In this document: in pieces, positions 1-60,383 of the stretch
How positions within the stretch are numbered: the stretch's first letter is position 1
Layout of the letters: each line of letters begins with the position of its first letter
Source: Isoetes taiwanensis
Taxonomy: Eukaryota > Streptophyta > Lycopodiopsida > Isoetales > Isoetaceae
Direction: 5' to 3'
Length of the DNA stretch: 64,000 bases
NCBI GenBank assembly: GCA_021234155.1
Contig: JAJEKV010000025.1
Span: 3,123,339 to 3,187,338, forward strand
Made by a program: the position numbers and the translations under genes
The notes under the pieces: generated by a model
What the model saw: only the letters and a program-made list of their open reading frames with translations
Told to the model about the DNA's origin: nothing
Databases searched by the model: none

Positions 1-220
1 TACGTTAATCATCTGCATGAAGAACCTTCTCGGCTATCAAGCACTCGGTTGCAACATCCACGAGCTCACAGCAGAAAGAAGATTGCTAGTACAACGTTTT
101 GTAAATACAAATTTATGTTTTGATCATGTTAACGTGTAAAGCTATAAGTAATTAGGTTGTATTAATGATATCTGCATGTGGAATTACCAAAATTGGAGCA
201 AAACTCAGTGTTTCTGGCAT

Positions 221-695
221 CTCTCATAGAGTGCGCCAGGACCAAATCCGTCATTCTCGGATTAGCCTCTCGCGCACTGTGTGAGTGGTCGGACACTGAT
301 CTTTGCCAATACTTGGCCAAATGCAGAAAGTAAGGACACCATTCGACTCATCTCATCTTAATTAGTAGGATTTGACCCCTAGTTTGTAGAAATTGGCCAA
401 CCCTAACTCAAATGGAGCCCCACCTTTCACAGAGTGCACCCAGACCAATTCGGTTTGCAAACCGATTCGACTCTGGCGCACTGTGTGAGTGGTCGACCCC
501 AAAACTAGGCCAAAACTTATCCAAATGAGGCAAGTAAGGGCTCAATCCGACCTATCTCGACGAGATATGCAGGATTCTATCCTTAATTTCCATGTTTGGC
601 ATCATCTTTGACCCAAACAAGACCCCACCCCTCACAGAGTGCGCCCAGACCAAATCGGTTTGCAAACCGATTCGACCCTGGCGCACTGTGTGAGT
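221..695. repeat. Three hairpin units spaced about 204 bp apart (copy A)
   Basis: Three units of about 65 bp start near 221, 425 and 629. Each begins with a variant of cacagagtgcgcccag and ends with ctggcgcactgtgtgag, which are imperfect inverted repeats of each other. The third unit has the perfect 20-bp palindrome aatcggtttgcaaaccgatt at 653-672. The second has the shorter core cggtttgcaaaccg, and the first has a different loop. The units lie upstream of a TATA-like site and an ORF, so an enhancer or U3-type role is possible, but that is inference. The same array recurs at 10038-10514. Confidence 0.8.
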
Positions 696-871
696 GGTCA
701 CACTAAAATTGCCCTAACTTGTCCATACTTTCTCCAAATTAGATGGAATTTGTTGCAATATGATCCTTAGAATGTACTCTTTAGCATGATTAGCTTGTCT
801 TTTGCTTAGCAATACCTTAGAATCCTAGATTTTCCCTTATCAAAAAATTTCCCAAAATTAGGGTTTTTGCC

Positions 872-879
872 TATAAGTA
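872..879 (+). promoter_or_regulatory. Possible TATA box upstream of the accessory ORF
   Basis: The sequence tataagta lies 111 bp before the ATG at 990, in an AT-rich stretch that follows the hairpin array. The second copy keeps it at 10687-10694. The spacing suits an RNA polymerase II core promoter, but only the motif and its position support this. Confidence 0.35.
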
Positions 880-989
880 GACCACAACCCTCATTTGCAT
901 CCTACACCTTTGCTCCTCACTCCAAGCCGATTTTCCAGACCCCTAAGGTGCTTGCCTATTTGTTTGATATCCCCAGCTGCTCATAGACC

Positions 990-1769
990 ATGGCAACCAC
1001 TGCATTCAGGCGATGGTACAGCGCCACAGCACATGTGGCTGAGGCCGACATCAACTTTGTCTTTGTCGTCTTCCAGAAGGAGCTTGATGTGGAAGCCACC
1101 ATCAATGCCACCCCTTTTTACCAAGACATTATGTCTGAGTTCCATGCCAAGATAGGACCATCTCTGGTAGAGCTCCCACCTTGCATAGGATACCTTGCCC
1201 CCAGCATGGCCCTTAAGTCAGCCCTGCAGGACATCCAAAACATAGACAAATACCTAGAAAATAAGGTCAGCTGCTCACCCAATTATATGTCCGTAGCTAT
1301 AAATAGGAGGAGATACTTCTCATACACCGCTGTAGCCATTTTCTTATCCCATAGAGCTCAAACCCAGATAGGAGAACCATATGTCCAACCCCTAGAGCTC
1401 GAGCCTATGGGCATGGCAACAGGTGAAGAAGGGCAGATGCTTCTCAAGTACGAGGAGGCAGAACAGGAGGAAGATAAAGGACGTGGGTCGGACGTAGAGG
1501 ACATCATAGACATCAACCCAGCACAGGAGAGGCAGCAAGCTGAGAAGGAACTTCAAAGCTTTGAAGAGGGGCTGAGAACTACGGCGCTAGGCATCACAAG
1601 CTTAACCCCGGTAATCATCCAAGGAGAGGCGTACCTGAGCCTGCACGACATCAAGAACCTCCCAGAGTGCAGGGACAGGGGCTACAGGATAGACGAGCTC
1701 CTACATCTCTTACGTCAACAACCGGGTCTTGATTCGACCGGGAGACACATGACTTCCCCATCAGTATAA
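990..1769 (+). CDS. Accessory ORF of an LTR-type element, copy A, 3' part decayed
   Basis: The ORF gives 259 residues from the ATG at 990. I recognise no named domain. Its architecture parallels the ORF at 6175: an aromatic RWY or QWY start, a helical N-terminal half, an acidic Glu/Asp-rich linker (about residues 140-175 here), then a short motif (LTPVIIQGEAYLSLHDI here, LLPTVLLNNQEYLILEDI there) followed by a basic helix. I therefore infer that the two are diverged members of one retroelement accessory family. A single extra g near 1740, compared with copy B, shifts the C-terminus. Coding-like sequence interrupted by stops continues to about 2385, where the LTR is inserted. It is probably not functional as it stands. 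Confidence 0.5.
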   Translation: MATTAFRRWYSATAHVAEADINFVFVVFQKELDVEATINATPFYQDIMSEFHAKIGPSLVELPPCIGYLAPSMALKSALQDIQNIDKYLENKVSCSPNYMSVAINRRRYFSYTAVAIFLSHRAQTQIGEPYVQPLELEPMGMATGEEGQMLLKYEEAEQEEDKGRGSDVEDIIDINPAQERQQAEKELQSFEEGLRTTALGITSLTPVIIQGEAYLSLHDIKNLPECRDRGYRIDELLHLLRQQPGLDSTGRHMTSPSV

Positions 1770-2390
1770 GAAAGGCCCGGATGTACACTGGCCAATCATC
1801 AACAGATATATAAGTCTACCGGCATCAGGCAGATGACGGCTCAGCAAGAGCTACCCATAGAGGAGGAGTTCTTAGCGATCTAGGAGCGGATGGGAATCAG
1901 AGGGAAAACAACGAGTGCGCTCCTACCTAGCACCTCGACAGCAGCACCAGCTGAACAGGATAGGGGCAACATCAACAAAAGGCGCAACAACGCTAGACAA
2001 CTGCAGAACACCCAAGTCCAGCCATGACGAGCTCCCAGACCCCTTGCCCTAGTAAGAAGACAATAATGACTTCATCGATTTAAAAAATAATGGATCATGA
2101 TCAAGGAAAAAGAGGAGACGTAAAATAGGGAAGGCACATCTCCGACTTGAAGGCATATATCAACACCAAGGGCAAGATCAAGGAGGAGGATAGTCGGTAC
2201 GAATAAGAGTTCCAGACCCAGAAACACCTGCAAACCCAAGGTAGGATGATTCCAGTGCCTCAGTCAAGTAGTTCAAGACTCGAGTGGACCCGACCCAAAG
2301 GACGGAGGAGCCGATCTAGCCAACAACCACAGACTACTCAAAGGCAACTCGAAGGAGCGATGGCATGTGCAATGTAGACGACAACATTTC

Positions 2391-3970
2391 GGTGACGTTC
2401 CAAGTATTTATACGGTATACGTATAAATATATTGACACGTCACCCAGTAAAGATACGCCACCATGGGCTATTTTAACCTAGGGGGTTGACCTAAAAGGGA
2501 TTAATTTAGCTATGCTAAATTAATTATTAAAGGTTAATTACAAGCATTGTCAAATTAACTCAATTAAGTTAATTGATTAATTAGAAAGGTGCCACTTGGC
2601 CAAATTCGATTGGCCAGCAGGGAAATGCTAACTTGGGGCATCAAATTGGAGGAGGAGCTGTGAGCGCCCAAACTGTTGCTGAACACCCAAGTTGCTGAAG
2701 TTGTTGCTGAACACCCAAGTTGCTGAAGTGGTTGCTAAACACCCAAGTTGCTGAAAGATGGAGGTGCCCCATGATAACGTTCTAGCAGAAACTCGGGTTA
2801 GTGGGTAGTCAAGCTTGAGATTTGTAGGATAGCGCCTCAGTTAGTCTTCTCTGGTTATCTTTGTTAGGATTAACCCTTCTTTGATAGTTGAGATTATATT
2901 TCAATTATGGATTATGCTTTGTTACGTATGGATGGATGAATCTATGAAAGTATCTCTGTTAGCTTCCGTAAAGCAGGGATTGGGGAGGGAAGAGACCTCT
3001 GAGCCCATGTATTGTAGCATGCTCCTAGATAGAGCCCTGTATTAATCCCATTAATTGCGGCCTGTGCACAAGAGACCACCGAGTCATGGATGCTATGGAA
3101 TTGCTTATCACCAGAGAAGGGACGCAGTGGTGAAGTGGGGGTGGGGTCTTGCACGAACATAAAAGGCTCCTGGGACTCCTACAGTGGGCTAGGCCTGATA
3201 GCCGGTCACGTAGAGGGCCGGGTATGGGTCTGACACTCCCTGGGTGGAGAGGTATGACCCGTATGGGGCATCCTGTACTTTGAAGATAACGTTAGGGGAG
3301 TAGGTCGGGTACGGATACGGGGGTCGCTGATGCGGCACATATTCTCTAGCTCACCCATGGAACCGCTGTGATCCTGGAAGGGGACACTTCCCTGACCTGC
3401 CTCATCGGACCAGGTCTTCATGAAACCTGGAGTAGGCTCGAAGGGTGATACCTTGAGTCTGCGTCTCCGGAAGGCTATAGTGATGCCATAGCATGATTCG
3501 ACTCATCTGCAAAGTGTGCACAGGAGGGGCGGATGGAGTGGACAACCCTAGCCGATGTTCTATGCCAGCCAACGCCATGCCAAGATTCGGTTTGCTGATC
3601 TCTTGAGACCTAGCCGTCAGTCGATCCTCACTGGAGTCTAAGCCGGGGTAGAACCATGGGTTTGGGGTGTTTTCTCTAGTATTAAATGTATCTTCTCTGT
3701 TATTATCAGTTGGATGGATGTGCCACCCTTCGTGGTGGTATTTATGATATGATTATGCTGTATGCTGACCTTGTATTCACGCTTCCGCGACATAGGAGCC
3801 CCATCGAAGGCATGGGCCGAATGACCCCTCTGTGTCCTTCACTCGAGCATCTTTCCATAGATGGCCCGAGTTAGACGGAGGGCCCTGCTCATGGCGAGAT
3901 GGTTGCCATGGGAGGGGGAAGTCCCCGTATGTATACGCCCGAGCGTCGTATATGTTCTGGGAGTGTCACA
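2391..3970 (+). repeat. 5' LTR of the histone-carrying retrotransposon (LTR A)
   Basis: The 1580-bp LTR begins ggtgacgttcc, where its relatives begin tgtgacgttcc, so the first T appears mutated. It ends gagtgtcaca. It is followed within two bases by a primer-binding site, which makes it a 5' LTR. The five bases before it (2386-2390, ATTTC) equal the target duplication around LTR B. Compared with LTR B it lacks about 36 bp near 2648. A tandem repeat lies inside at 2668-2757. Diverged relatives are LTR C (23125-24727) and LTR D (62790 onward); shared blocks include a GT-rich 'ggggtagagacct' region and 'gtgcacaggaggggcggat'. Confidence 0.88.
2668..2757 (+). repeat. Tandem repeat of about 30-33 bp within LTR A
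   Basis: About three head-to-tail copies of a unit containing gttgctgaacacccaa are seen. The same array is in LTR B at about 12522-12607. Confidence 0.85.
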
Positions 3971-4641: not shown

Positions 4642-5541
4642 ATGATGCCGCGCTTCAAGCTCACCATGGACCTAAACAAGGCGACTGTCTTCCAGCTGTT
4701 TAGCATCCTAGTCGACCATCTCTCTGATGATAGTGATATGGCCGACACTGTCCTAAACCTACTTGTGACTCATTTCACTGAGGGCCGTAGAATCCCCTAC
4801 CCCATCTTCCATTTCAATGACTGCTTCCTCATGAAGCTAAATGCTGCAGACCAACCTTACACCCTTGTAGAGCAGCCTGATCAAGCTTGGGCCATTGTTA
4901 AGTTCTATCCGCTAGCCGGCCCAGAGGAGGATCCCGCAGAGCTTATCAGAACAGAGGCCCAACGGATTTTGCACCTTGCTAGGGTAGAGGACCTCCAGCA
5001 AATAGCTAGTGGCCTACCAGAAGAGCGGGCTAGCCGTTTCTATTACCTAGGTAAGGGCCATGTGCTCATGTACAGGGACTGCATTACAACCTTCCCCCTT
5101 TCTTTTGGAACGAAGAACTATATAGTTTTATCTTCGAGAATGTTCCCCCTACCTTCACACAAGACCGCATGGACCTCGTGCAAGCTGACATGCGAGCTCA
5201 CCCGGCCCGGTACCACACGGAGATTGCTAGGCGTATACAAGTTGTGCCAGGACAAGGAGGCCCGGGATGCTGAGAGAGAGAGGCTCCGTAAGGCAGAGGG
5301 GGATGCCCAAAACCAGCAGGGCAGGGATCAAAATGTTGATCAAAGTGTAGATCAAACTGTTGTCCAGCAAGGAGATCAACCAGTGAATCAGGAAGGAGAT
5401 CAGACTGTCGTCCCGGATAAGAAGGAGCAGCGTTGGGGTAACCGAAAGAGGAAGAATACAAAACCTATAAGGGGAGGTGTGGATTATAGGACCCGATTGC
5501 AGAAGGATGCCGCCATTGGCAAGAAAACATCGGCTCAGTGA
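4642..5541 (+). CDS. Retrotransposon accessory ORF, N-terminal part of a histone H3 fusion
   Basis: The first in-frame ATG is at 4642 (the frame is open from 4621), giving 299 residues before a TGA at 5539-5541. The N-terminal 190 or so residues look globular but match no family I know. From about residue 195 the protein turns strongly charged, with a repeated DQ-V-Q-GDQ pattern, then a Lys/Arg-rich stretch near the end. It lies between the primer site and gag, an unusual place for an extra ORF. After the TGA the same frame continues without another stop into a histone H3 domain, so the original product was probably one protein of about 425 residues. A retroelement-specific function is likely but unknown. 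Confidence 0.6.
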   Translation: MMPRFKLTMDLNKATVFQLFSILVDHLSDDSDMADTVLNLLVTHFTEGRRIPYPIFHFNDCFLMKLNAADQPYTLVEQPDQAWAIVKFYPLAGPEEDPAELIRTEAQRILHLARVEDLQQIASGLPEERASRFYYLGKGHVLMYRDCITTFPLSFGTKNYIVLSSRMFPLPSHKTAWTSCKLTCELTRPGTTRRLLGVYKLCQDKEARDAERERLRKAEGDAQNQQGRDQNVDQSVDQTVVQQGDQPVNQEGDQTVVPDKKEQRWGNRKRKNTKPIRGGVDYRTRLQKDAAIGKKTSAQ

Positions 5542-5925
5542 CGGGAGCAGATCGTTCAGCGGGCGAAACATCCGACGACCGGCGGGAAATCCATCCCATT
5601 GCTGAAGGCAACCGTCAAGCCGCGGAAGCCCCATAGATTTCGACCGGGCACAGTAGCTCTTCATGAGATACGTAAGTATCAGAAGACTACTGAGCCATTG
5701 ATTCGTCGGCTACCCTTTCAGCGGCTTGTCCGGGAAATTGCCCAAGAATTCAAGACCGACCTGAGGTTTCAGGCTTTTGCTATCCTCGCACTCCAGGAGG
5801 CTACCGAGGCTTACCTCATTGAGATTTTGAGTGACGCCAACCTCTGTGCCATCCATGCAAAGAGGGTTACCATAATGCCCAAGGATATCCAGCTCGCAAG
5901 GAGGATCCGAGGGGAGTTTCGGTGA
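5542..5925 (+). CDS. Histone H3-like domain, in frame after a TGA
   Basis: In the frame of the preceding ORF, the stretch from about 5557 to 5925 reads as histone H3. It has a degenerate tail ([11 protein letters not shown], corresponding to QTARKSTGGK), [20 protein letters not shown] leading to the alphaN helix, then [21 protein letters not shown] (shown split as [13 protein letters not shown] and EFKTDLRF), [10 protein letters not shown] for alpha2, [20 protein letters not shown], and LARRIRG near the end. Loop 1 has canonical H3 length (FKTDLRF), so it resembles H3.1/H3.3 rather than CENH3. Lys9-Ser10 equivalents are lost and part of the tail (around residues 20-35) is shortened. No ATG precedes the H3 part, so translation would need the upstream ORF plus read-through or an earlier intact version. 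It is almost certainly captured from a host gene. Confidence 0.9.
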
Positions 5926-6174: not shown

Positions 6175-7380
6175 ATGGCTCGCCCGACTCTACAGCAGTG
6201 GTACTTGGATGGAGAGCATTGGGACCCTGCGGTTCCCTTTGACGTTCTTCATCCTTATCTGCTCCAGCACGTGGATCTCATCCACAACATGCAGGCGCAC
6301 CCCGACTACGCCGCCTTCCTTCAATTCTTCTGTGAGGAGATTGTGCCTGCTTGCATCTTCAATGAAGACGACTCACAGCTCTACCTCGACTTCCACACCT
6401 TGCTCGAGATGTTAGGAGGTGATGATCATGCCCGGAATGTTATCAAGGGCATAAGGAGGCGAGGGACCGACCTCCCTATTGTTACTATAGATCGGGAAGT
6501 CTGTTTTGAGGCCCGATTTGCACTGGCCATCATCATGGACCAGTATATTGAAGAGGAGCAGATAGCTGCCGAGCGTTCTTCTACGCCAGTACCTCCTGAC
6601 CCGGAAGACGATGAAGTCGTCGACGAGCAGGACTTTGTACGGTGGAAGGAGTTAGCCACCGAAGCACTGGCAGGTCGAGATAAAGCCCTCAAGCTCGAAG
6701 GGCTAAACCTCCTCCCTACCGTACTCTTGAACAACCAAGAGTACCTGATTCTCGAGGACATTATGTGGGCTTACCGCGTCATTGCTGATATGCGGGGCCG
6801 TCGAAAGATAGAGGTCCTCTACGACCTTGCCGAGTACTGTCAGGATGACTTCCTCGACTTTACAACACCCGTCGTGCACCCACCACAAGTAGAAAACTTG
6901 CTGGTATACCGGCCAGAAGAGCTAGAGCCTGTTGAGACCCTTTTGTCTCTTCGGCAGTTCCTATTGACTGATACACCCCAGCCTCTGGAGGAGCAGTTTG
7001 CAGCTCACATGCGCCCTCCTCTTGCAGTTCAGCCATTGCAGATCACGATGGGAGGGGTGGATCAAGAGGAGGAAGACCTTTGGGACACCAAGATGAGCCT
7101 TAGGGATGACAAAGAAGAAGCAGAGCAGGAGAAGATCCCTGTTAACTTGGAAAAGGAAGCAGAGACCTCCAGGGATCCCCAAATTAGGGCAATGGGCAAC
7201 CAGTTGACCCGATTCTTTCAGCCTTCCGGCAAGGTGAGGTCTTGTTCTTCTCCAAGAACTTGGGGCCTTCTTCTGAAGCATCCTGGTGGGCGCTCCGTGC
7301 GTTATCCACCTTGGTGGGCCATAAGAAGATTGATTACCATGCCACCACTATCACTTTGGTCTGACGAGATCTGGCTATAG
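6175..7380 (+). CDS. Second accessory ORF of the histone-carrying retrotransposon
   Basis: The ATG at 6175 opens 401 residues. There is no named domain. It begins MARPTLQQWY and has an acidic linker near residues 140-155 (PPDPEDDEVVDEQD). The motif LLPTVLLNNQEYLILEDI comes next, at about residues 180-197, and a second acidic region around residues 295-330. The layout matches the ORF at 990-1769, so I infer homology. After about 7230 a shift of one base gives a more natural continuation that runs to 7561 with a single TGA at about 7358, so the true C-terminus has probably been frameshifted. A splice-donor-like AAG/GTGAGG also occurs near 7229. It lies 249 bp after the H3 domain. Confidence 0.55.
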   Translation: MARPTLQQWYLDGEHWDPAVPFDVLHPYLLQHVDLIHNMQAHPDYAAFLQFFCEEIVPACIFNEDDSQLYLDFHTLLEMLGGDDHARNVIKGIRRRGTDLPIVTIDREVCFEARFALAIIMDQYIEEEQIAAERSSTPVPPDPEDDEVVDEQDFVRWKELATEALAGRDKALKLEGLNLLPTVLLNNQEYLILEDIMWAYRVIADMRGRRKIEVLYDLAEYCQDDFLDFTTPVVHPPQVENLLVYRPEELEPVETLLSLRQFLLTDTPQPLEEQFAAHMRPPLAVQPLQITMGGVDQEEEDLWDTKMSLRDDKEEAEQEKIPVNLEKEAETSRDPQIRAMGNQLTRFFQPSGKVRSCSSPRTWGLLLKHPGGRSVRYPPWWAIRRLITMPPLSLWSDEIWL

Positions 7381-7561
7381 TGGCATTGGGGGACGTGGCG
7401 GGCTGCGCTAGTATGCGACTCCTTGTGGCGGCATCCTTGGCCACTTGCTTACCACCGGAGGCAGCAGCTCGAGCCGCCCTCTCGGCTAGCCCCAGTACCA
7501 CCCTGATGCGCTACCGGCCACCTCCTCAGCCTATGGACGACGATGAGGAACCTAGTTCTTA
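7381..7561 (+). pseudogene. Frameshifted C-terminal continuation of the second accessory ORF
   Basis: In the alternative frame the reading continues through an alanine-rich, then proline-rich segment, ending in MDDDEEPSS and a stop at 7561. I recognise no domain. It is best read as the displaced C-terminus of the preceding ORF, because the open frame extends back through the last 150 bp of that ORF with only one stop. Confidence 0.35.
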
Positions 7562-7708: not shown

Positions 7709-8248
7709 TTGTTTGTCTCTTTTAGAGTTTGGAGTATAAAAAATCGTTCGATATTGTATATTCATCCTTGTCGTCTTACAGACGATGAGCTCGAGGAAAT
7801 CGAGGACAGAATAACCAATGAATTACGAAGGGACGATCAGGCACCTCCCGAGCAGGACTTTGGTCAACGGTATGGGGAGTATCCGGATCGGGATGATGAT
7901 TACGAAGCAGGGGAACCCGTGGACGAGGGAGAGCCCTATGATTCAACTAAAGGATTGGAAATAGTCAACATCCTCCGTGAGCGCGCTTTTGAGCATCTAC
8001 AACAGACTCTTCGTTGTACCTGGGATTACTGGGATATGACGAAGCACGAAGATTTTGCCGACGCCAATGACCATTTATGGCAGATCTTCTACGCGTTAAG
8101 AGACCTTTTTAATTTGCTCATCATTAGTCCTACGTTAGACTACCGGTACGTCATCATCCAGGCATGGGCTCGCTACAAGGTAGTCAGGGCAGTACGGGAG
8201 AGCATCCGTTACTCTATCATGTACCCCTTCGCACAACCCTGGGCCTGA
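7709..8248 (+). CDS. Third accessory ORF, unknown, possibly a 3' exon
   Basis: An open frame of 179 codons starts at a TTG and has no early ATG; the first Met is in the C-terminal half (WDMTKHED). The coding-like part begins at about 7783 after a splice-acceptor-like cttacag, so it may be a 3' exon. It has an acidic N-terminal region (TDDELEEIEDRI, DRDDDYEAGEP), then a helical, aromatic-rich C-terminal half (WDYWDM, WQIFYALRDLF). No family is recognised. A run of 18 A's follows at 8289-8306, which could be a retained poly(A) tract. Confidence 0.45.
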   Translation: MFVSFRVWSIKNRSILYIHPCRLTDDELEEIEDRITNELRRDDQAPPEQDFGQRYGEYPDRDDDYEAGEPVDEGEPYDSTKGLEIVNILRERAFEHLQQTLRCTWDYWDMTKHEDFADANDHLWQIFYALRDLFNLLIISPTLDYRYVIIQAWARYKVVRAVRESIRYSIMYPFAQPWA

Positions 8249-8525
8249 TCTCTTCAGTTTTTCTTTTATGGCTAAGTATGTGTTGACTAAAAAAAAAAAA
8301 AAAAAATTGTCCAATGTATAATTACTACTTTTGTACTGTACAGCCTTAAGTTCCAGTTAAAATACACTTCCAATGTAACTGCCACTTTGACTTATAAATA
8401 AAGCTCTTTTCTTTAATTCTCTTGTATTGTCTTTATTATTGTTTCTTAGTACTGCTCAAAAATGATCTTCATTGTGACACTCGATATCACAATAATTCTA
8501 TTTATACCTTCTTATGGTCAATATA

Positions 8526-9170
8526 GATGGTGCACGTAACGCCTCATGGCAGACACCCTCGAATGCTAGCAGATTAACACCTGAGCAGGAACTCATGTTG
8601 ATGAAATAGCAGTTAGTAGAGCTACAGGCTTATGTCTTAAATGCCAAACCACCACAGCATATGCAGGAGGACGGACCGGAGTTACCTCCGTTACCACCAA
8701 GTCCATCACCACAGCAGCCACCTGCACCTAAACGAGGCCCTGTACCCGCACAAAGGAGGAACCGTTCCAAACGTCGTCGAAGTTCGTCTACAGATAGTGC
8801 CACATCCTCACAATCAGCCACTTCTATGTCTTCGGAGTCGTCTATATCGTCCGGTGACCATGCAAAGGCCCGAAACAAGGAGTACCGTAAGACGGTTGAT
8901 ACGGCCATTACCAGTATATGGAAAAACAAAAAATTGGCTCAGTTTGATGGGAAATCAAGAGGCGGGCTGAATGCAGAGTCTTGGTTAAACGAGATGAAGG
9001 AGTTTGGGAAATCCTATGGGATGACGGAGAAAGATACAGGAAAAGTTGCCACTACAAACCTTACAGGGGCCGCTCGTATTTGGTGGAAGGGCTATGCTAG
9101 AGCCAAGCATCTGGACAGAAGCAGATGCAAGTTTAAAAAGTTTGCCAAAGCCGTTTGGGATCCGATTTGA
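8526..9170 (+). pseudogene. gag: Truncated Ty3/gypsy gag
   Basis: The frame is readable from 8526 but has a TAG at about 8607. From the ATG at 8661 it gives 169 residues: a Pro-rich segment, a basic RRNRSKRRR patch, a Ser-rich linker, then the retrotransposon gag core (FDGKSRGGLNAESWL, GAARIWWKGYARAK). The IWW motif and the spacing are typical of Ty3/gypsy capsid. The reading breaks off at 9170 in mid-domain, where the sequence passes into the flank repeat of copy B. No zinc knuckle, protease, reverse transcriptase or integrase is present. Confidence 0.82.
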
Positions 9171-9200
9171 TCTTGGCGCACTGTGTGAGTGGTGGACCTA
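9163..9200. other. Junction of the tandem duplication
   Basis: The gag sequence ending in gatccgatt meets tgatcttggcgcactgtgtg, the right half of a flank hairpin. Intact hairpins read aaccgattcgaccctggcgc, so the two partners share ccgatt at the crossover. This suggests a microhomology-mediated or short-homology junction. Confidence 0.6.
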
Positions 9201-9331
9201 TGTTGACCTAGTTAAATGCATAATTTAGCTAAACTAATGGTGTAGTTCAGCTTATGATTCTAGCTAGTTTTGCATGTTACAACACTAAGAAACCCTTTGT
9301 AAATTGAGAATTGACCCAAAAAGAGGTGACC

Positions 9332-10514
9332 CCTCATAGAGTGCGCCCAGACCAATTCGGTTTGCAAACCGATTCGACCCTGGCGCACTGTGTGAGTGGT
9401 CAAAACTTTGAACCTTCATTATACAGCTCCAAATCGCCTGAAATTTGTTGCGTTAGGACCATTAAAGAGTCTAGAATCCAATTATAACCCTAAATTAGGC
9501 TAAAAATATTATAATCCACCTCAAAATGACCAAAAATTGCTCAAACCCTAAATTATGTCTTCCAAACTAGGGTTTGTTTAGAAATAGAGGCAGTAGCTTT
9601 TAGGATACAAGGCTAGAGCCACAGAAGAGCAAAGGGCATGACTTTTTGAAGACATTGAAGACCCAGACGACGTACTGACAACATAAGGGAGGACTGTGAA
9701 AGGCAGACCCAAGAGAGGAAGCACTATGGCAAACACCTCTACCAACGAAGCAAGTAGTACATGGCACAACTGGTTTATCAACAATCTTCATCGAATGGAA
9801 GACATACGTTAATCATCTGCATGAAGAACCTTCTCAGCTATCAAACACTCGGTTGCAACATCCACGAGCTCACAGCAGAAAGAAGATTGCTAGTTATCGT
9901 AAATACACAACTTTTTGTAAATACAAATTTATGTTTTGATCATGTTAACGTGTAAAGCTATAAGTAATTAGGTTGTATTAATGATATCTGCATGTGGAAT
10001 TACCAAAATTGGAGCAAAACTCAGTGTTTCTGGCACCCCTCACAGAGTGCGCTAGGACCAAATCTGTCATTCTCGGATTAGCCTCTCGCGCACTGTGTGA
10101 GTGGTCGACCACTGATCTTTGTCAATACTTGGCCAAATGCAGAAAGTAAGGGCACCATTCGACTCAGCTCATCTTAATTAGTAGGATTTGACCCCTAGTT
10201 TGTAGAAATTGGCCAACCCTAACTCAAATGGAGCCCCACCCCTCACAGAGTGCGCCCAGACCAATTCGGTTTGCAAACCGATTCGACTCTGGCGCACTGT
10301 GTGAGTGGTCGACCCCAAAACTAGGCCAAAACTTATCCAAATGAGGCAAGTAAGGGTCAATCCGACCTATCTCGACGAGATATGCAGGATTCTATCCTTA
10401 GTTTCCATGTTTGGCATCATCTTTGACCCAAACAAGACCCCACCCCTCACAGAGTGCGCCTAGACCAAATCGGTTTGCAAACCGATTCGACCCTGGCGCA
10501 CTGTGTGAGTGGTC
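9332..10514. repeat. Hairpin units of copy B
   Basis: Hairpin units lie near 9332-9400, 10038-10105, 10241-10310 and 10445-10514. The last three match the three units of copy A with the same 203-204 bp spacing. The first lies further upstream and would correspond to DNA left of this window in copy A. Confidence 0.8.
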
Positions 10515-12206
10515 ACACTAAAATTGCCCTAACTTGTCCATACTTTCTCCAAATTAGATGGAATTTGTTGCAATAGGATCCTTAGAATGTACTCTTTAGC
10601 ATGATTAGCTTGTCTTTTGCTTAGCAATAACTTAGAATCCTAGATTTTCCCTTATCAAAAAATTTCCCAAAATTAGGGTTTTTGCCTATAAGTAGACCAC
10701 AACCCTCATTTGCATCCTACACCTTTGCTCCTCACTCCAAGCCGATTTTCCAGACCCCTAAGGTGCTTGCCTATTTGTTTGATATCCCCAGCTGCTCATA
10801 GACCATGGCAACCACTGCATTCAGGCGATGGTACAACGCCACAGCCCATGTGGCTGAGGCCGACATCAACTCTGTCTTTGCCGTCTTCCAGAAGGAGCTT
10901 GATGTGGAAGCCACCATCAATGCCACCCCTTTTTACCAAGACATTATGTCTGAGTTCCATGCCAAGATAGGACCATCTCTGGTAGAGCTCCCACCTTGCA
11001 TAGGATACCTTGCCCCCAGCATGGCCCTTAAGTCAACCCTGCAGGACATCCAAAACATAGACAAATACCTAGAAAATAAGGTCAGCCGTTGACCCAATTA
11101 TATGTCCATAGCTATAAATAGGAGGAGATACTTCTCATACACCACTGTAGCCATTTTCTTATCCCATAGAGCCCAAACCCAGATAGGAGAACCATCTGTC
11201 CAACCCCTAGAGCTCGAGCCTATGGCCATGGCAGCAGGTGAAAAAGGGCAGATGCTTCTCAAGTACGAGGAGGCAGAACAGGAGGAAGATAAAGGACGTG
11301 GGTCGGACGTAGAGGACATCATAGACATTGACCCAGCACAGGAGAGGCAACAAGCAAAGAAGGAACTTCAAAGCTTTGAAGAGGGGCTGAGAACCACGGG
11401 GCTAGGCATCACAAGCTTAACCCCAGTAATCATCCAAGGAGAGGCGTACTTGAGCCTGCACGACATCAAGAACCTCCCAGAGTGCAGGGACAGGGGCTAC
11501 AGGATAGATGAGCTCCTACATCTCTTATGTCAACAACCGGATCTTGATTCGACCGGAGACACATGACTTCCCCATCAGTATAAGAAAGGCCCGGATGTAC
11601 ACTGGCCAATCATCAACAGATATATAAGTCTACACCGGCATCAGGCAAATGACGGCTCAGCAAGAGCTACCCACAGAGGAGGAGTTCTTAGTGATCTAGG
11701 AGCGGATGGGAATCAGAGGGAAAACAACGAGCGCGCTCCTACCCAGCACCTCGACAGCAGCACCAGCCAAACAGGATAGGGGCAACATCAACAAAAGGCA
11801 CAACAACGCTAGACAACTGCAGAACACCCAAGTCCAGCTATGACGAGCTCCCAGGCCCCTTGCCCTAGTAAGAAGACAATAATGACTTCATCGATTTAAA
11901 AAATAGGGGATCATGATCAAGGAAAAAGAGGAGACGTAAAATAGGGAAGGCACATCTCCGACTTGAAGGCATATATCAACACCAAGGGCAAGATCAAGGA
12001 GGAGGATAGTCGGTACGAATAAGAGTTCCAGACCCAGAAATGCCTGCAAACCCAAGGTAGGATGATTCCAGTGCCTCAGTCAAGTAGTTCAAGACTCGAG
12101 TGGACCCGACCCAAAGGACAGAGGAGCCGACCTAGCCAACAACCACAGACTACTCAAAGGCAACTCGAACAAGCGATGGCATGTGCAATGGAGACGACAA
12201 CATTTC
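9807..12206. repeat. Copy B of the duplicated flank DNA
   Basis: From 9807 the sequence is nearly identical to the window from base 1 onward, through hairpins, TATA-like site, accessory ORF and the decayed region, up to the same LTR insertion point. Small substitutions and indels show that the two copies have diverged modestly and are not a simple assembly echo. Confidence 0.93.
10805..11566 (+). pseudogene. Accessory ORF, copy B, broken
   Basis: This is the second copy of the ORF at 990-1769. It starts at the ATG at 10805 but stops at about 11090-11092 (TGA where copy A reads tca). The frame resumes from about 11102 and runs to 11566. The C-terminus keeps the frame that copy A loses, ending SLHDI...LDSTGDT. 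Together the two copies show that each carries its own lesion. Confidence 0.75.
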
Positions 12207-13825
12207 TGTGACGTTCCAAGTATTTATACGGTGTACGTATAAATATATTGACACGTCATCCAGTAAAGATACGCCACCATGGGGTATTTTAACCTAGGGG
12301 GTTGACCTAAAAGGGATTAATTTAGCTATGCTAAATTAATTATTAAAGGTTAATTACAAGCATTGTCAAATTAACTCAATTAAGTTAATTGATTAATTAG
12401 GAAGGTGCCACTTGGCCAAATTCGATTGGCCAGCAGGGAAATGCTAACTTGGGGCATCAAATTGGGTCCCTACCCCATTTGACCCCAAAATCGAGCCAGG
12501 AGGAGGAGCTGTGAGCGCCCAAGCTGTTGCTGAACACCCAAGTTGCTGAAGTTGTTGCTGAACACCCAAGTTGCTGAAGTGGTTGCTGAACACCCAAGTT
12601 GCTGAAAGATGGAGGTGCCCCATGATAACGGTTCTAACAGAAACTCGGGTTAGTGGTTAGTCAAGCTTGAGATTTGTAGGATAGCGCCTCAGTTAGTCTT
12701 CTTGGTTATCTTTGTTAGGATTAACCCTTCTTTGATAGTTGAGATTATATTTCAATTATGGATTATGCTTTGTTACGTATGGATGGATGAATCTATGAAA
12801 GTATCTCTGTTAGCTTCCATAAAGCAGGGATTAGGGGGGGGGGGTAGAGACCTCTGAGCCCATGTATTGTAGTATGCTCCTAGATAGAGCCCTGTATTAA
12901 TCCCATTAATTGCGGCCTGTGCACAAGAGACCACCGAGTCGTGGATGCTATGGAATTGCTTAGCACCAGAGAAGGGACGCAGTGGTGAAGTGGGGGTGGA
13001 GTCTTGCACGAACATAAAAGGCTCCTAGGACTCCTACAGTGGGGTAGGCCTGATAGCCGGTCACGTAGAGGGCCGGGTATGGGTCTGACACTCCCTGGGT
13101 GCAGAGGTGTGACCCGTATGGGGCATCCTATACTTTGAAGATAAAGTTAGGGGAGTAGGTCGGGTACGGATACGGGGGTCGCTGATGCGGCACGTATTCT
13201 CTAGCTCACCCATGGAACCGCTGTGATCCTGGAAGGGGACACTTCCATGACCTGCCTCATCGGACCAGGTCTTCATGAAACCTGGAGTAGGCTCGAAGGG
13301 TGATACATTGAGTCTGCGTCTCCGGAAGGCTATAGTGATGCCATAGCATGATTCGACTCATCTGCAAAGTGTGCACAGGAGGAGCGGATGGAGTGGACAA
13401 CCCTAGCCGATGTTCTATGCCAGCCAACGCCATGCCAAGATTCGGTCTGCTGATCTCTTGAGACCTAGCCGTCAGTCGATCCTCACTGGAGTCTGAGCCG
13501 GGGTAGAACCATGGGTTTGGGGTGTTTTCTCTAGTATTAAATGTATCTTCTCTGTTATTATCAGTTGGATGGATGTGCCACCCTTCGTGGTGGTATTTAT
13601 GATATGATCATGCTGTATGCTGACCTTGTATTCATGCTTCCGCGACATAGGAGCCCCATCGAAGGCGTGGGCCGAATGACCCCTCTGTGTCCTTCACTCG
13701 AGCATCTTTCCATAGATGGCCCGAGTTAGACGGAGGGCCCTGCTCATGGCGAGATGGTTGCCATGGGAGGGGGAAGTCCCCGTATGTATACGCCTGAGCG
13801 TCGTATATGTTCTGGGAGCGTCACA
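12207..13825 (+). mobile_element. Solo LTR (LTR B) with ATTTC target-site duplication
   Basis: The 1619-bp LTR starts tgtgacgttcc and ends gagcgtcaca. It is flanked by ATTTC at 12202-12206 and at 13826-13830. No primer-binding site follows it, so it is a solo LTR formed by LTR-LTR recombination. Its 5' flank is the same insertion site as LTR A. It carries a poly-G run near 12835 and the tandem repeat at about 12522-12607. Confidence 0.93.
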
Positions 13826-23124: not shown

Positions 23125-24727
23125 TGTGACGTTCCAGCATAATATACGCTCCAAAAATGTATATTATACTGCCACGTCACATGTACATGTCACGGATGAC
23201 ATGTACTTGCGAGCCGAAGAGGGTTGCACCTAGGGGCCAAGAGTTGCACCTAGGGGGGCAACCTCGAATGTTGTGCATGTTAAATAAACATACACAATTA
23301 ATAACCCCATGGACCCCATTGCCAAATGGCTAAACCCCATTTGGCCAATGTCTAACCTAACCCTAAGGGTTTCTATAAAAGGGGTTCCCCTTAAAACCTA
23401 GACCCTTTCTTCTCTTTGCATTTTAGGGTTTTCATAGAGCTCCTTTCCCTTCTCGCATTTAGGGTTCTCTTGAGCCATTTCGGCTAAGCCAAGACCCCAT
23501 TTCGCATTGTTCGGCTCTGCAAAGCCGTATTTGCACAATAGATCATCGAGTAGCAGCAGTCTTCAGCAGGATCAGAGGCATGGATGCATTCCGAGACTTT
23601 GGAGCAGATCAAGGACCAGGTATCGAGTCATTCCGTTGTGCAAAGCCGCCTTTTGGCTAGGCAATAAGCAGGTTTAGTATGTTAGATCAGCCATAGAAGC
23701 CTTATAGATCCCGAGATCATAAACCCTAACTAAGGAACCTAACTCTGGACGTTTAGGTAGATGGATTAGATGATGTTCTTCATTTCAGTTCTGTGATGAT
23801 GTTGGTATTTCATTCTGTGACCTCCATGTATTGGGAAGGGGGGTAGAGGCCTAAAGCTTGTGTAGCAGATGATCATAGGTAGCCTACTAGCTCCCAATTA
23901 TTGCGGCCTGTGCACAGGAGCCCACTGGGTTGTGGGTTGAGGGGCTAGACCAGCAGAACAATGGGACACTTATCCCAACACAGAATGATCCCTCTGGTGT
24001 GTAAAGCCTACCGGGGATTCCCTGTGGACTAGGCTTAATGGCTTGCCACTGTGTGTGGGCAAGGCATGAGCTCGACACCCGTGGAGTGATGCGTCACTCT
24101 CCATTGGGTTCAAGTCGAATAAGGGCAGTGGCCCTCTAGTCACCTGTGTTGGGCATGGAAGTCCCTGGAGGAGAGGTGACTCTCTTCCTGCCTCATCAGT
24201 GCTAGGGAGATGCAACCCAGTAGTAGCCCTTTTGGCTATGCACCTGGCAGGCTACGGTCCAGTCCCAACACTTTTCAATCCAATCTGCAAAGTGTGCACA
24301 GGAGGGGTGGATGGAGTGGACTACCCTTAGCCATGTTCTTATGCCAGCCAAATCCATGTGCCATGAATTCTGTCTGCAATGTGGAGGCCCAAGCCGGCAG
24401 TCATACACCCTCGAGTCTGAGCCCTGGGTAGGATTTCCTTTTACTGTTAGTGTTCATGTTGATGTTGTTATATTGACGAGGATATGATGTTTCACCCTTC
24501 GAGGTGATTGTATTGTTATAGTATGTCATGTGCTCATGTTTATTCACGCTTCCGCAGATAGGTCGACCCGAAGGGAGACGGGTGAATGACACATCCACTC
24601 TTCCCTTGCTGGCTCATTCCACTGGAAGTGGTGTCAGGTGGATGGCCCCTGCCAGTTTGGCTGTCAGGGGGAATGCTCCGCCTTCTGATACGGTGTGTGC
24701 ACCGTAGAGGAAGTAGGGGACGTCACA
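23125..24727 (+). repeat. 3' LTR (LTR C) of the truncated gypsy element
   Basis: The 1603-bp LTR starts tgtgacgttccag and ends ggacgtcaca. It shares structure and blocks with LTRs A and B (attgcggcctgtgcacagga; gcaaagtgtgcacaggaggg) but is clearly diverged. No direct repeat matches on both sides, because the 5' end of the element is lost. Confidence 0.88.
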
Positions 24728-37289: not shown

Positions 37290-39742
37290 TGTAACGGTCC
37301 TGGCCACCTAATGGGTCAATATACCTATTTATGTATGTATATACATATTCATGGCATATATGCAGCATGAGATTAGGGTTTTGTCTCTTTGGAGAAAGGA
37401 TTGTTGCAGAGCATGAAGGTAGGGAGCAATTCTGGGCAGTTTTGGAGCCCGAAGTTTGAAGCATCATATCTCGGCAACTCGAGATCCTTTTCAGGTGATT
37501 TTTCTTTTGTTGGAAAGGTCTTTAAGTAAGCTTTCCGGAATGGGTCTGATCAAGCCAAAACTCATCCGTATGCAAACGTTATGACAGAAATAGTGATGCT
37601 GAGTCAGAATTGACTGCACTATGCCTATTCTTCTGCAGTTTGCTTCTTGGAGCTAGAAGACGATCTTTGGAGGCACAATCAATTACAAGGGGTCCAGAGG
37701 TCTATGTGGAAAGAAATTATCAGGTGGGGTTTTGCTTTTGATCAATTGAGGTGTGCTATGAGCTGCCATGATTAGTCTGCACATGATTTTTGCATGCAAA
37801 TATGATAGATTATGAATTTGTTGGAGACTCATAAGGCTAGAGAAGAAAATCAATGATTGGAAACATCCCTGTAAGGCTGATTTTAAGTCAAGAATGGCTG
37901 AATATTACATGAAGAGCACTGATTCAACATGGAAACTTTAAAAAAAGGCAGAATTAGATTGGATCTGGTCGGCACCGAGCTCTCCAACGCCATTTTGTGT
38001 TCATGTTATGTTTTTGTCATTTTGGTTTTGTGCTTTATTTTGTTGGTCTTGTATTTGCTGCCTTTCTCAATTTATTTGCATGTCCTAGTATGAAGCTAAG
38101 TCCTCATAGATGGAATTGGGCTGCATTCGAGCTTAGCAGCAGAGGAGATCGGAGCATGAAGAGCTGAGCAGAATAATCATAATAGTAAGAATATGCATTG
38201 TTTGATAATTGTCTAACTATGGTAAAATTCTAAGGTTTGGGATAAAGTATCTTTCTTAGCTCATGGAGATGGGGCTAATGCTGAAAAGTAGTCTAGCACA
38301 GATGTAGAGCGTCAACGACCCCTCGGCATCAAGGATTTCAGCATCAAGTTCGCATGTGGATCTTGAAATAGGAATAAGCGGTCATCTGACATCAAGGATT
38401 ATTGAGATTGAGACGGGTCCACATTGGTACAAGGAGAGCCATGTGAAGCTTGGGGGTTTCTGAATGTGACTATAGCATGAAGTACATCTAGTCTGAGTGC
38501 GTAACTGTAAGTTTTCAAGTTGTTGCATTGTATTTTATCAAGAGCATCATAGCTAATGGATTCAAAGTATAAACGTTATGGAACGTTGTATTCCTCATGG
38601 GAAGATGGTTTCGAGGTAAGTTTTGCATTATAGAAGATGTTAGTATCTTTCCTTGATCAGTAACGTATATAGGTATTGAAGCTACATCAATGACAGTCAG
38701 GCTCGTAACTTCCTCCACATGTTTGTATTGTGATCATGATCTTCACCAATGAGTTAGCTACTTCGGCATGGTTAGGTTGTATGGGCAACCTCGACAAGGG
38801 CTAAGAGTATGATCTAGGCACATGTTTAATAAATATTGTAATGAACTTCACATGTCATGGTCTTTGCATTGCTCTACTGTTGTCTTGGTATTTGATTATG
38901 TCTATTGGAACCTCCGGGGTCGGACTTCTAGGTTCGGTGGCCTAGGTTGCTCTGGCATGCTCATGTTCATCTGTGATTCTCTGTGGTTCTTGTGCTCTAT
39001 GACACCGGGCGTAGTTTCCCTGATCAGGAGGCTACGTCAACTCTTGTGACTCCATGGTAAGAGGTCCTCCAGTGCCAGACGTGGGCTGAGAGGGTATGCG
39101 CATACGAGGTTCACCCCACCAACTCCGTCAACGGGGCTCGGAATGTGAGCTGGCCGGGCATTTCTCTGCTAACAGGGCCTGCATGTAGGCTGGCTGAGCT
39201 TCCCATTGTCCCGGAGCTATGTGTCATGATGGTTTGATATTTTTGACTATGTCTTGCTTCTGATGTTCATGTTGATATTTCTTTGGATTATGTTGTCATT
39301 GTCTTAGCACTGTACTCACGTAGGATTTTCCATCTGTGTTTATGCTTATCCGAGATTTCCAGAGTATTTCCATACATGCAGTGGCAGCCAGGGATCCCCA
39401 CTTAGTCACGAGGACTAACCCCAGTGAGTGCATGTGCAGTGAATAAGCAAGGGATGGCGGCGGTGCAGCTGAGGATCGTGGTGGAGCGAAGCTCTTGGGA
39501 TGAATTGTTCACAATTATATGTTATATTTGTTGAGAACATGGATTCTTTGGCTGTTAATATTTTCTGATTATATTGAGATCTTAAGTAGTTGCTCATTGA
39601 GTTTTGAGCGTGTAATTTAACTGTGCAAGAGGAAGATTCAATTCTTCACCATATCCAATTGTTTGTCACACCAACCTAGAACTAGCACAGTATTGACAAG
39701 ATCCCGAGTTGCCTAGAGGGTCAACTCGGCAGGCTCGTCACA
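37290..39742 (+). repeat. 5' LTR of the TGCTA-flanked element
   Basis: It starts tgtaacggtcc and ends ggctcgtcaca. It is nearly identical to the 3' LTR over most of its length, but has a cluster of differences at about 39070-39200. Confidence 0.93.
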
Positions 39743-40136
39743 GTTGGTATCAGAGCAATGTTGGATCTTTGGGAGTTGGCTTGTTTGGTTGTGGCATTGT
39801 GATGCTAATGATCTTTCTTTCAGAGACATCAAGAGATGGTATCCTCAGAGGGATAAGCAATATCTAGGGGTGGTTAGCATGAAGATGCCAAGGCAAGCAA
39901 ATTTTGACGATGTTGAAGGTAAGGTCTTTCTTGTGGCATGTTCAGTAAGATGATAGCAATTGTAAGATGGTGCTGGTAAGATTGGAATATGATTGTGGTA
40001 GAGTAAGTTGCTACACGAGCTGAAGTTTTGAGTTGAGTTGAGCTATGCTTGATCTGAGATTTGAATCAAGAAATTCTTCAGTAGAATCTATCACGCGACC
40101 CATGAGGACATGGGTTAATTTTTAGAAGGGGAGACT
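39743..40136 (+). other. Internal region of the non-autonomous LTR element
   Basis: The region holds a 69-codon frame (39744-39953, with FRDIKRWYPQRDKQY) that matches no gag I know and might be a remnant of a gag start. It ends in the polypurine tract agaaggggagact (40124-40136). Related sequence (agtagaatc-, cgacccatgaggacatgggt) recurs in the CHERP intron near 47320-47420. Confidence 0.75.
39745..39756 (+). other. Primer-binding site (initiator tRNA-Met type)
   Basis: The sequence tggtatcagagc starts three bases after the LTR end, complementary to initiator tRNA-Met. Confidence 0.93.
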
Positions 40137-42595
40137 CAGAACGGTCCCGCCACCTAATGGGTCAATATACCTATTTATGTATGTATATACATATTCATGG
40201 CATATATGCAGCATGAGATTAGGGTTTTGTCTCTTTGGAGAAAGGATTGTTGCAGAGCATGAAGGTAGGGAGCAATTCTGGGCAGTTTTGGAGCCCGAAG
40301 TTTGAAGCATCATATCTCGGCAACTCGAGATCCTTTTCAGGTGATTTTTCTTTTGTTGGAAAGGTCTTTAAGTAAGCTTTCCGGAATGGGTCTGATCAAG
40401 CCAAAACTCATCCGTATGCAAACGTTATGACAGAAATAGTGATGCTGAGTCAGAATTGACTGCACTATGCCTATTCTTTCTCAGTTTGCTTCTTGGAGCT
40501 AGAAGACGATCTTTGGAGGCTAATCAATTACAAGGGGTCCAGAGGTCTATGTGGAAAGAAATTATCAGGTGGGGTTTTGCTTTTGATCAATTGAGGTGTG
40601 CTATGAGCTGCCATGATTAGTGCGCACATGATTTTTGCATGCAAATATGATAGATTATGAATTTGTTGGAGACTCATAAGGCTAGAGAAGAAAATCAATG
40701 ATTGGAAACATCCCTGTAAGGCTGATTTTAAGTCAAGAATGGCTGAATATTACATGAAGAGCACTGATTCAACATGGAAACTTTAAAAAAAGGCAGAATT
40801 AGATTGGATCTGGTCGGCACCGAGCTCTCCAACGCCATTTTGTGTTCATGTTATGTTTTTGTCATTTTGGTTTTGTGCTTTATTTTGTTGGTCTTGTATT
40901 TGCTGCCTTTCTCAATTTATTTGCATGTCCTAGTATGAAGCTAAGTCCTCATAGATGGAATTGGGCTGCATTCGAGCTTAGCAGCAGAGGAGATCGGAGC
41001 ATGAAGAGCTGAGCAGAATAATCATAATAGTAAGAATATGCATTGTTTGATAATTGTCTAACTATGGTAAAATTCTAAGGTTTGGGATAAAGTATCTTTC
41101 TTAGCTCATGGAGATGGGGCTAATGCTGAAAAGTAGTCTAGCACAGATGTAGAGCGTCAACGACCCCCGGCATCAAGGATTCAGCATCAAGTTCGCATGT
41201 GGATCTTGAAATAGGAATAAGCGGTCATCCGACATCAAGGATTATTGAGATTGAGACGGGTCCACATTGGTACAAGGAGAGCCATGTGAAGCTTGGGGGT
41301 TTCGAATGTGACTATAGCATGAAGTACATCTAGTCCGAAAAGCGTGAATCGTAAGTTTTCAAGTTGTTGCATTGTATTTTATCAAGAGCATCATAGCTAA
41401 TGGATTCAAAGTATAAACGTTATGGAACGTTGTATTCCTCATGGGAAGATGGTTTCGAGGTAAGTTTTGCATTATAGAAGATGTTAGTATCTTTCCTTGA
41501 TCAAGAACGTATATAGGTATTGAAGCTACATCAATGACGGTCGGGGCTCGTGAACTTCCTCCACATGTTTGTATTGTGATCATGATCTTCACCAATGAGT
41601 TAGCTACTTCGCATGCATGGTGAGGTTGTATGGGCAACCTCGACAAGGGCTAAGAGTATGATCTAGGCACATGTTTAATAAATATTGTAATGAACCTCAC
41701 ATGTCATGGTCTTTGCATTGCTCTGCTGTTGTCTCGGTATTTGATTATGTCTATTGGAACCTCCGGGGTCGGACTTCTAGGTTCGGTGGCCTAGGTTGCT
41801 CTGGCATGCTCATGTTCATCTGTGATTCTCTGTGGTTCTTGTGCTCTATGACACCGGGCGTAGTTTCCCTGATCAGGAGGCTACGTCAACTCTTGTGACT
41901 CCATGGTAAGAGGTCCTCCAAAGGCCGGACGTAATGAGAGGGTATGCGATATCGCAGGTTCACCCCACCAACTCCGGCCAATCGGGGCTCGGAATGTGAG
42001 TCGGGCGGGCATTTTCTCTAAAGGGTGGCCTCGCATGTAGGTCGGGCCGAGCTTCCCATTGTCCCGGAGCTATGTGTCATGATGGTTTGATATTTTTGAC
42101 TATGTCTTGCTTCTGATGTTCATGTTGATATTTCTTTGGATTATGTTGTCATTGTCTTAGCACTGTACTCACGTAGGATTTTCCATCTGTGTTTATGCTT
42201 ATCCGAGATTTCCAGAGTATTTCCATACATGCAGTGGCAGCCAGGGATCCCCACTTAGTCACGAGGACTAACCCCAGTGAGTGCATGTGCAGTGAATAAG
42301 CAAGGGATGGCGGCGGTGCAGCTGAGGATCGTGGTGGAGCGAAGCTCTTGGGATGAATTGTTCACAATTATATGTTATATTTGTTGAGAACATGGATTCT
42401 TTGGCTGTTAATATTTTCTGATTATATTGAGATCTTAAGTAGTTGCTCATTGAGTTTTGAGCGTGTAATTTAACTGTGCAAGAGGAAGATTCAATTCTTC
42501 ACCATATCCAATTGTTTGTCACACCAACCTAGAACTAGCACAGTATTGACAAGATCCCGAGTTGCCTAGAGGGTCAACTCGGCAGGCTCGTCACA
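40137..42595 (+). repeat. 3' LTR of the TGCTA-flanked element
   Basis: It begins cagaacggtcc after the polypurine tract, where the 5' LTR begins tgtaacggtcc, so the terminal TG is mutated. It ends ctcgtcaca at 42595. The exact start is uncertain by a few bases. Confidence 0.9.
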
Positions 42596-60250: not shown

Positions 60251-60298
60251 CCAGATGCAGTGTCCATGTTTTGAAACCATAAGAAACAAGTACTTTAA

Positions 60299-60383
60299 CT
60301 ATTTGGCATATTTTAAAATACTCCCTATAACTTGAGTATGTGATTTGGCAAATTCTAAAATACTTTTTATAACTTGAGTATGT
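60299..60383 (+). repeat. Tandem 42-bp repeat at the end of the PPR pseudogene
   Basis: Two copies with atttggca and taacttgagtatgtg lie head to tail where PPR similarity ends. Confidence 0.8.

Follow-up and report, generated by a model that had tools for sequence, protein, structure and literature searches.

A family of Ty3/gypsy chromoviruses in the genome of the quillwort Isoetes taiwanensis, with up to three extra ORFs before gag, carries a histone H3 as a standing module. This H3 is fused to an orphan domain, and purifying selection acts on it in diverged subfamilies, which bear Gag-Pol as well. Within the literature searched here, an H3-carrying LTR element is new. The window, i.e. the whole stretch of DNA that was analysed (64,000 nucleotides of contig JAJEKV010000025.1), contains one decayed member of this family, whose features are the following.

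2391–3970, + strand: 5' LTR, starting with GGTGACG and ending with GTGTCACA, with ATTTC directly before it; aligned to the LTR of the related locus L010
3972–3983, + strand: primer-binding site TGGTATCAGAGC, read directly in the sequence and identical in L010
4642–5538, + strand: ORF-A (orphan N-domain, Q/D-rich linker and basic pre-H3 segment), from ORF reading and tblastn
5539–5541, + strand: TGA, in frame, separating ORF-A from H3 in this copy
5542–5925, + strand: histone H3 module with a shortened and altered tail and a complete histone fold; stop codon at 5923–5925; from Pfam PF00125 and PDB H3 chains
6175–7559, + strand: ORF-B, frame shifted near 7212–7338; in relatives it is about 450 aa long; without a Pfam match
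7778–8248, + strand: ORF-C, in relatives about 170 aa long; nothing above the Pfam cut-off
8496–9155, + strand: gag, first part only, with one stop, from tblastn with residues 1–220 of the L010 gag frame; junction near 9145
9145–12206, + strand: duplicated flanking segment X', read as outside the element; its other copy begins about 711 bases beyond the left end of the window and ends at 2390
12207–13825, + strand: 3' LTR, TGTGACG...GCGTCACA, with ATTTC directly after it; probably a solo LTR

The initial annotation of this DNA called an LTR retrotransposon; its LTRs, as corrected here, are 2391–3970 and 12207–13825. The longer repeat (1–3970 and 9805–13825, 96.1% identical) includes duplicated flanking DNA besides the LTRs, and its interpretation as a pair of 4-kb LTRs was rejected because the comparison with L010 gives LTRs of about 1.6 kb plus the duplicated flank. 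The divergence between the LTRs (K80 0.021) is similar to that between the flank copies (0.025). ATTTC is found on both outer sides of the LTR pair, before the 5' LTR and after the 3' LTR, and the first base of the 5' LTR is altered (GGTGACG versus TGTGACG in the 3' copy). The primer-binding site, which we take to be of the initiator-Met type, is present, but a polypurine tract, looked for before the 3' LTR, is absent. Past the junction near 9145 the remainder of gag and the whole of pol are missing, so that the Ty3/gypsy domain order cannot be read in this copy. The simplest reading of the arrangement would be a tandem duplication through gag and the left flank, with the second element copy down to a single LTR.

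The duplicated 3-kb segment (9145–12206, and from left of the window to 2390) contains the ORFs 987–1769 and 11093–11566, neither with a Pfam match. The first of them had been considered as LTR-borne, a placement rejected after the L010 comparison assigned it to the duplicated flank. An 88-nt motif with self-complementary parts occurs in five copies, at 408, 613, 9315, 10224 and 10428, most of them in this segment. Elsewhere in the window, a second LTR element lies at about 37290–42595, with 2.45-kb LTRs (97.5% identical), the primer-binding site TGGTATCAGAGC and TGCTA on both sides; about 400 bases separate its LTRs and coding capacity is not evident. Two fragments, 24283–24431 and 63743–63992, are 76–80% identical to the LTR and are perhaps remnants of related elements. 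At 59280–60335 there are frames resembling, by eye, exons of a PPR-repeat protein, which is consistent with the many PPR genes described for I. taiwanensis in the accessible part of its genome paper (PMC8566536). Rfam at gathering scores gave no match within the window.

The nearly complete H3 core described in the initial annotation was borne out. Positions 5542–5922 encode 127 aa that match Pfam Histone PF00125 (2e-44, 151.2 bits, cut-off 26.4) and, over residues 22–125, PDB H3 chains (1.5e-50); the best 60 PDB matches shown are all H3 chains. A single-sequence structure model of this part had a pLDDT of 43.8, too low to bear on the fold. In six loci and in the window copy, the core (100 residues) aligns without gaps to host H3 and is 82–88% identical to it, the window copy being at 82%. 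CENH3 is marked by a longer loop 1 and a diverged core; identity with CENH3 was rejected because the core is ungapped to canonical host H3 over these 100 residues. The placement of ORF-A and H3 between the primer-binding site and gag also holds, with the correction that ORF-B and ORF-C intervene between H3 and gag. With respect to the fusion in frame, ORF-A and H3 do share a frame, but the TGA at 5539–5541 and two compensating frame shifts within ORF-A (about 5090–5260, by eye against relatives) break the window copy. The unbroken fusion thus belongs to its relatives. The fusion of locus L026, used as a tblastn query on the window, gave a single match at 4642–5922, with 81% identity and one stop.

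These relatives establish the class of the element. Locus L010 has LTRs of 1633 and 1632 bp (TGTGACG..GCGTCACA, K80 0.035) with TG..CA ends, GTGGC as target-site duplication on both sides, the primer-binding site TGGTATCAGAGC and the polypurine tract AAGGAGGGGAGAA before the 3' LTR. Its order is LTR, ORF-A/H3, ORF-B, an ORF-C-like stretch (DNA match), Gag-Pol and LTR. The domains of Gag-Pol follow the Ty3/gypsy order, Ty3_capsid, RVP_2, RVT_1, RT_RNaseH, Integrase_H2C2 and rve, the latter at 30.1 bits, below its cut-off of 32.6. The frame breaks inside the integrase, ahead of the chromodomain position. The chromodomain at the integrase C-terminus that characterizes chromoviruses is found in locus L022, whose gag-pol is in two frames; the second runs from the integrase through an SH3-like part to the chromodomain (PF00385, 6.3e-8, 32.9 bits, cut-off 25.1). 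In the same locus the gag frame starts 263 bases past the H3 stop (L022:3363–3626) and both the fusion and the chromodomain integrase are open; neither ORF-B nor ORF-C seems to be present. Most of the 10-kb stretches stop short of the integrase end, and none of the copies examined has a wholly unbroken Gag-Pol.

The genome search covered an assembly of 1,658,258,908 bases in 1110 contigs. In the histone profile search the best 150 of 8704 candidates were scored; the first-look candidate counts of this and other searches (8704, 12627 and 4641) are not copy numbers. Fifteen of these best 150 matches score 164.1–165.4 bits, and the eight of them that were examined are ordinary H3. The other 135, the window's included, score 144.5–154.7 bits, and for 36 of the 135 the open frame is 400 codons or longer. 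Twenty long-frame loci were picked for frame length among these best 150 PF00125 scores. In all 20, one open frame covers an N-domain of about 200 residues, a linker and H3, and ends with the latter, except in L026, where it runs about 20 residues further. Three forms can be distinguished among them: subfamily A (12 loci), subfamily B (7 loci) and L021, which stands alone. The N-domains of four B loci and of L021 are 32–36% identical to that of L010, an A locus. In 20 short-frame loci drawn from the same best-150 list, N-domain sequence lies upstream of H3 in 18, although in one of these only the last quarter is present.

A sample not selected on H3 was obtained by searching with the first 200 residues of ORF-B. 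The best 150 relatives were scored and 20 of these rows were chosen by eye, away from H3 rows already examined; all have an A-type best match. Within the 900 bases upstream of ORF-B, H3 is found in 19 of the 20, about 241–382 bases before ORF-B, and stops occur in five of the 19; L060 has no H3 within that distance. With the entire fusion as query, 108 match rows were obtained, and 30 of these are stop-free from query residue 11 or earlier to residue 435 or later. Of the intact master on which the initial annotation had made its proposal depend, stop-free fusion frames are thus seen, but no wholly unbroken Gag-Pol in the copies examined. The idea that H3 is present only at the window locus fails with the three samples (20/20, 18/20 and 19/20). 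So does that of a separate insertion within the element, since in less decayed copies H3 is continuous with ORF-A and the fusion H3s form one clade. It is scarcely conceivable that host H3 genes were misplaced beside repeats by assembly or annotation: the fusion H3s are a clade apart from host H3, the matches are spread over dozens of contigs, and nothing was found to favour such an artefact.

Selection was estimated as dN/dS by Nei-Gojobori counts for pairs within subfamilies A and B. The medians for H3 are 0.043 in A (66/66 pairs usable) and 0.019 in B (21/21), those for the N-domain 0.083 (44/66) and 0.110 (21/21), and those for the linker 0.218 (61/66) and 0.116 (21/21). In a query-anchored alignment, the values for A and B, respectively, are 0.043 and 0.009 for H3, 0.036 and 0.161 for RT (in reach in 15 of the 20 loci), 0.027 and 0.250 for the gag core, and 0.115 and 0.232 for ORF-B. 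The constraint on H3 in subfamily A is thus about that on the enzymes of the element, no tighter than on RT or gag, while in B it is tighter than on these. The long-frame loci are biased towards low H3 values because frame length and a high H3 score were the criteria of choice. In the ORF-B sample, with decayed copies included, stop codons skipped and seven saturated pairs left out, the H3 median is 0.11 and the 90th percentile 0.34 (148 comparable pairs). The comparison among copies that the initial annotation had proposed gives H3 medians of 0.02–0.11.

These values bear on the idea that the H3 is a neutral passenger, i.e. a host gene fragment captured by transduplication and carried by chance. 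Plant LTR elements do capture pieces of host genes, according to the available part of PMC7264820, the window copy is broken, and about a quarter of the H3s in the ORF-B sample (5/19) contain stops. However, the few copies and decaying coding sequence expected of a neutral fragment are not what is seen. The dN/dS of 0.02–0.11, the existence of three diverged forms, the 30 of 108 rows that are full length and stop-free, and the presence of H3 in 19 of 20 ORF-B-sampled copies make this origin very improbable.

That H3 was captured once, long ago, and then kept by selection is well supported. In a tree of 21 fusion H3 cores and eight other H3s (simple model without mixture, 100 columns), the fusions form one clade with support 100/99, found in 100% of 200 bootstrap trees. 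Synonymous differences between fusion H3s and eight host H3 genes are saturated (median pS 0.90–0.93, lowest 0.79), values above 0.75 partly reflecting codon bias. Neither a recent second capture nor gene conversion from these eight host genes agrees with the separate clade and the saturated pS, and both were rejected. Between subfamilies A and B, synonymous sites are saturated in H3 and in the N-domain (84/84 pairs), whereas RT has a median dS of 0.64 (54 pairs), so the 5' module seems to predate its pairing with the present pol. Across L009–L028, ORF-A/H3 and ORF-B are saturated or nearly so at synonymous sites between A and B and RT is close; 5' modules were probably swapped between elements. 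The gag core of the subfamily B loci (L009, L012–L017) is diverse, with dN 0.28 versus 0.02 within A, which suggests more than one gag type within this subfamily.

In the fusion protein, the N-domain (about 200 aa) is followed by a linker that is charged or rich in Q, then by a basic segment that is conserved, and finally by an H3 with a rebuilt tail. The N-domain found no match among about 5.8 billion proteins at E values up to 0.001 (single sequence) or 0.01 (alignment of 10), in a search that detects only relatives with common short exact words and whose scope leaves unannotated plant repeats outside. In Pfam, ten members gave a best value of 0.05, with no family common to more than two, and a profile search of the PDB gave a best value of 0.072, which is not meaningful. 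In IMG/VR there were 24 pattern matches, none of them confirmed. Comparison of the N-domain, ORF-B, ORF-C and gag by hhalign showed no relation between them (best probability 0.5%), with rows picked by motif (two for ORF-C, nine for ORF-B and nine for gag). The H3 part gave 5103 matches in the protein database; among the 120 listed, the eight examined are tandem copies of ordinary H3, and this listing neither shows nor excludes fusions elsewhere.

Across the 20 long-frame loci, the mature-H3 positions 43–45, 47–52, 65–70, 72–74, 78–85, 108–120, 122–123 and 126–132 are invariant; in the window copy H replaces R at position 49. These positions presumably include parts of the alpha-N helix, of the DNA-binding loops and of the H3-H3' bundle. 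Changes are concentrated in the tail, at 57–64, 86–89 and 101–107, and at the C-terminus. Common to the three forms, in comparison with host H3, are A at 107 and the loss of S at 86 and of S/T at 87, to which I at 89 (V kept in 3/12 A loci) and R at 36 (19/20 loci) can be added. The changes at 86–89 and 101–107 could affect contact with H4 or with chaperones. The canonical tail, ARTKQTARKS with K4, K9, K27 and K36, is not found in the fusion H3s. It is replaced by the basic segment and a rebuilt stretch, with 16–18 K+R versus 3–5 D+E before the core in three loci, and the basic segment keeps the pattern Y(K/R)..L......(A/G)K.....RR in the six loci aligned. A K beside 'HP' in this tail is ambiguous, being the counterpart of either K9 or K27.

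The element probably acts on host chromatin. The invariance of the contact regions points away from a decoy and to a histone that should still form tetramers and be taken into nucleosomes, and the selection on an N-domain standing in place of the tail suggests a tether. We therefore consider, giving it about an even chance, that the fusion may be built into nucleosomes with the orphan domain as a tether in the tail position, for marking or shielding. The fusion would be translated from its own ATG, its H3 would pair with host H4 and reach the nucleus via the H3-H4 chaperone route, and after incorporation into nucleosomes the orphan domain would occupy the position of the H3 tail. From there it might flag chromatin for the integration complex. 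Alternatively, element DNA might be covered by nucleosomes whose tails are beyond normal modification by silencing enzymes. A tail not open to normal marking by the host would fit silencing evasion as well as target-site labelling, and on present data the two uses are inseparable. Somewhat more tentatively, the element could supply part of its own nucleosomes, so that the chromatin it occupies or targets would be physically tagged and partly exempt from host marks. The family may then code for a chromatin reader, in the chromodomain of its integrase, as well as for a histone of its own that the integration machinery could find.

Conservation of the core would also be expected from a protein that bound only a histone chaperone. 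The H3 part could then bind importins and the H3-H4 chaperones of the host while never entering nucleosomes stably, and we consider it unlikely, though worth weighing, that it serves in this manner as an adaptor. An equally unlikely extension is that such an adaptor would carry the orphan domain and the integration complex to the nucleus or to replication forks. Most of the core is conserved, including the surfaces of chaperone contact, and the changes at 86–89 fall within the stretch by which chaperones distinguish H3 variants. However, chaperone binding alone should need the H3-H3' contact less, and positions 108–120, 122–123 and 126–132, which hold it, are invariant in the 20 loci.

The highly basic pre-H3 segment, encoded in a fusion upstream of gag and beside two other unknown ORFs, could also serve in packaging, if this segment and H3 condensed the cDNA or RNA of the element together with host H4 in the particle or the pre-integration complex. 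This is distinctly improbable, since gag already includes a capsid family and what looks, by eye, like a basic stretch of its own, and since H3 needs H4 as a partner and no H4 was found among the ORFs run against Pfam. The replaced tail and the change of K36 in 19 of 20 loci, which would keep incorporated copies from bearing normal marks there, might instead point to a fusion that is dominant-negative on host chromatin assembly and relaxes silencing generally. Such interference would be costly to the host, and we hold it to be quite improbable. Incorporation into nucleosomes with a tethered orphan domain is the reading that we carry forward.

Transposable elements read chromatin, by means of chromodomains, and hide from silencing. 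If the proposal is true, an element supplying a core histone would represent a strategy distinct from both. The fusion is also a naturally occurring H3 variant whose tail is altered while its core is conserved, and it brings an orphan domain family to solve. From the standpoint of genome annotation, H3-bearing repeats risk being taken for host histone genes or lost from repeat libraries. In the I. taiwanensis paper, for instance, repeats resembling plant proteins were dropped before masking, according to the accessible section of PMC8566536. The word histone is absent from the main text of this paper and of that on I. sinensis (PMC10541799), as judged from term counts.

Different known systems share features with this family. 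CENH3 and other H3 variants also combine an H3 fold with an altered tail, but here the core is ungapped (loop 1 is not longer), an unrelated domain is fused and the gene is borne by a mobile element. Large DNA viruses encode histone sets or doublets and are likewise mobile or infectious genomes with their own histones; however, their genome type is unrelated and, to our knowledge, they offer no case of H3 on an LTR element. Captured genes of the Bs1 type are host gene sequences within an LTR element as well, and transduced genes occur in one or few copies, as stated in the available part of PMC7264820. The H3 module differs from these captures in its presence in 19/20 ORF-B-sampled copies, in its diverged forms and in its purifying selection.

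The family shares with plant chromoviruses the TG..CA LTRs, the 5-bp duplication, the primer-binding site, the polypurine tract and the domains from capsid to integrase (L010), as well as the chromodomain (L022). It differs from them in the extra ORFs before gag, the first of which is fused to histone H3. No histone domain in such elements is named in the accessible portions of PMC3350952, PMC12786077 and PMC7264820, and nothing comparable to a histone-bearing retrotransposon was found in the open literature, which leaves out most subscription papers and every bioRxiv preprint. According to the available part of the review PMC12786077, chromodomains of group II have no aromatic cage and act by mechanisms yet to be elucidated; an element with a chromodomain, of group I or II, and its own H3 would provide a new handle on this question. 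The closest account in the literature searched is that of an orchid Ty3/gypsy lineage which, in the accessible text of the same source, carries its own AlkB-type demethylase. Both are LTR lineages that retain a host-type regulatory domain in an additional ORF, but the orchid enzyme demethylates RNA, whereas the quillwort fusion includes a core histone, and its action would be on the structure of chromatin.
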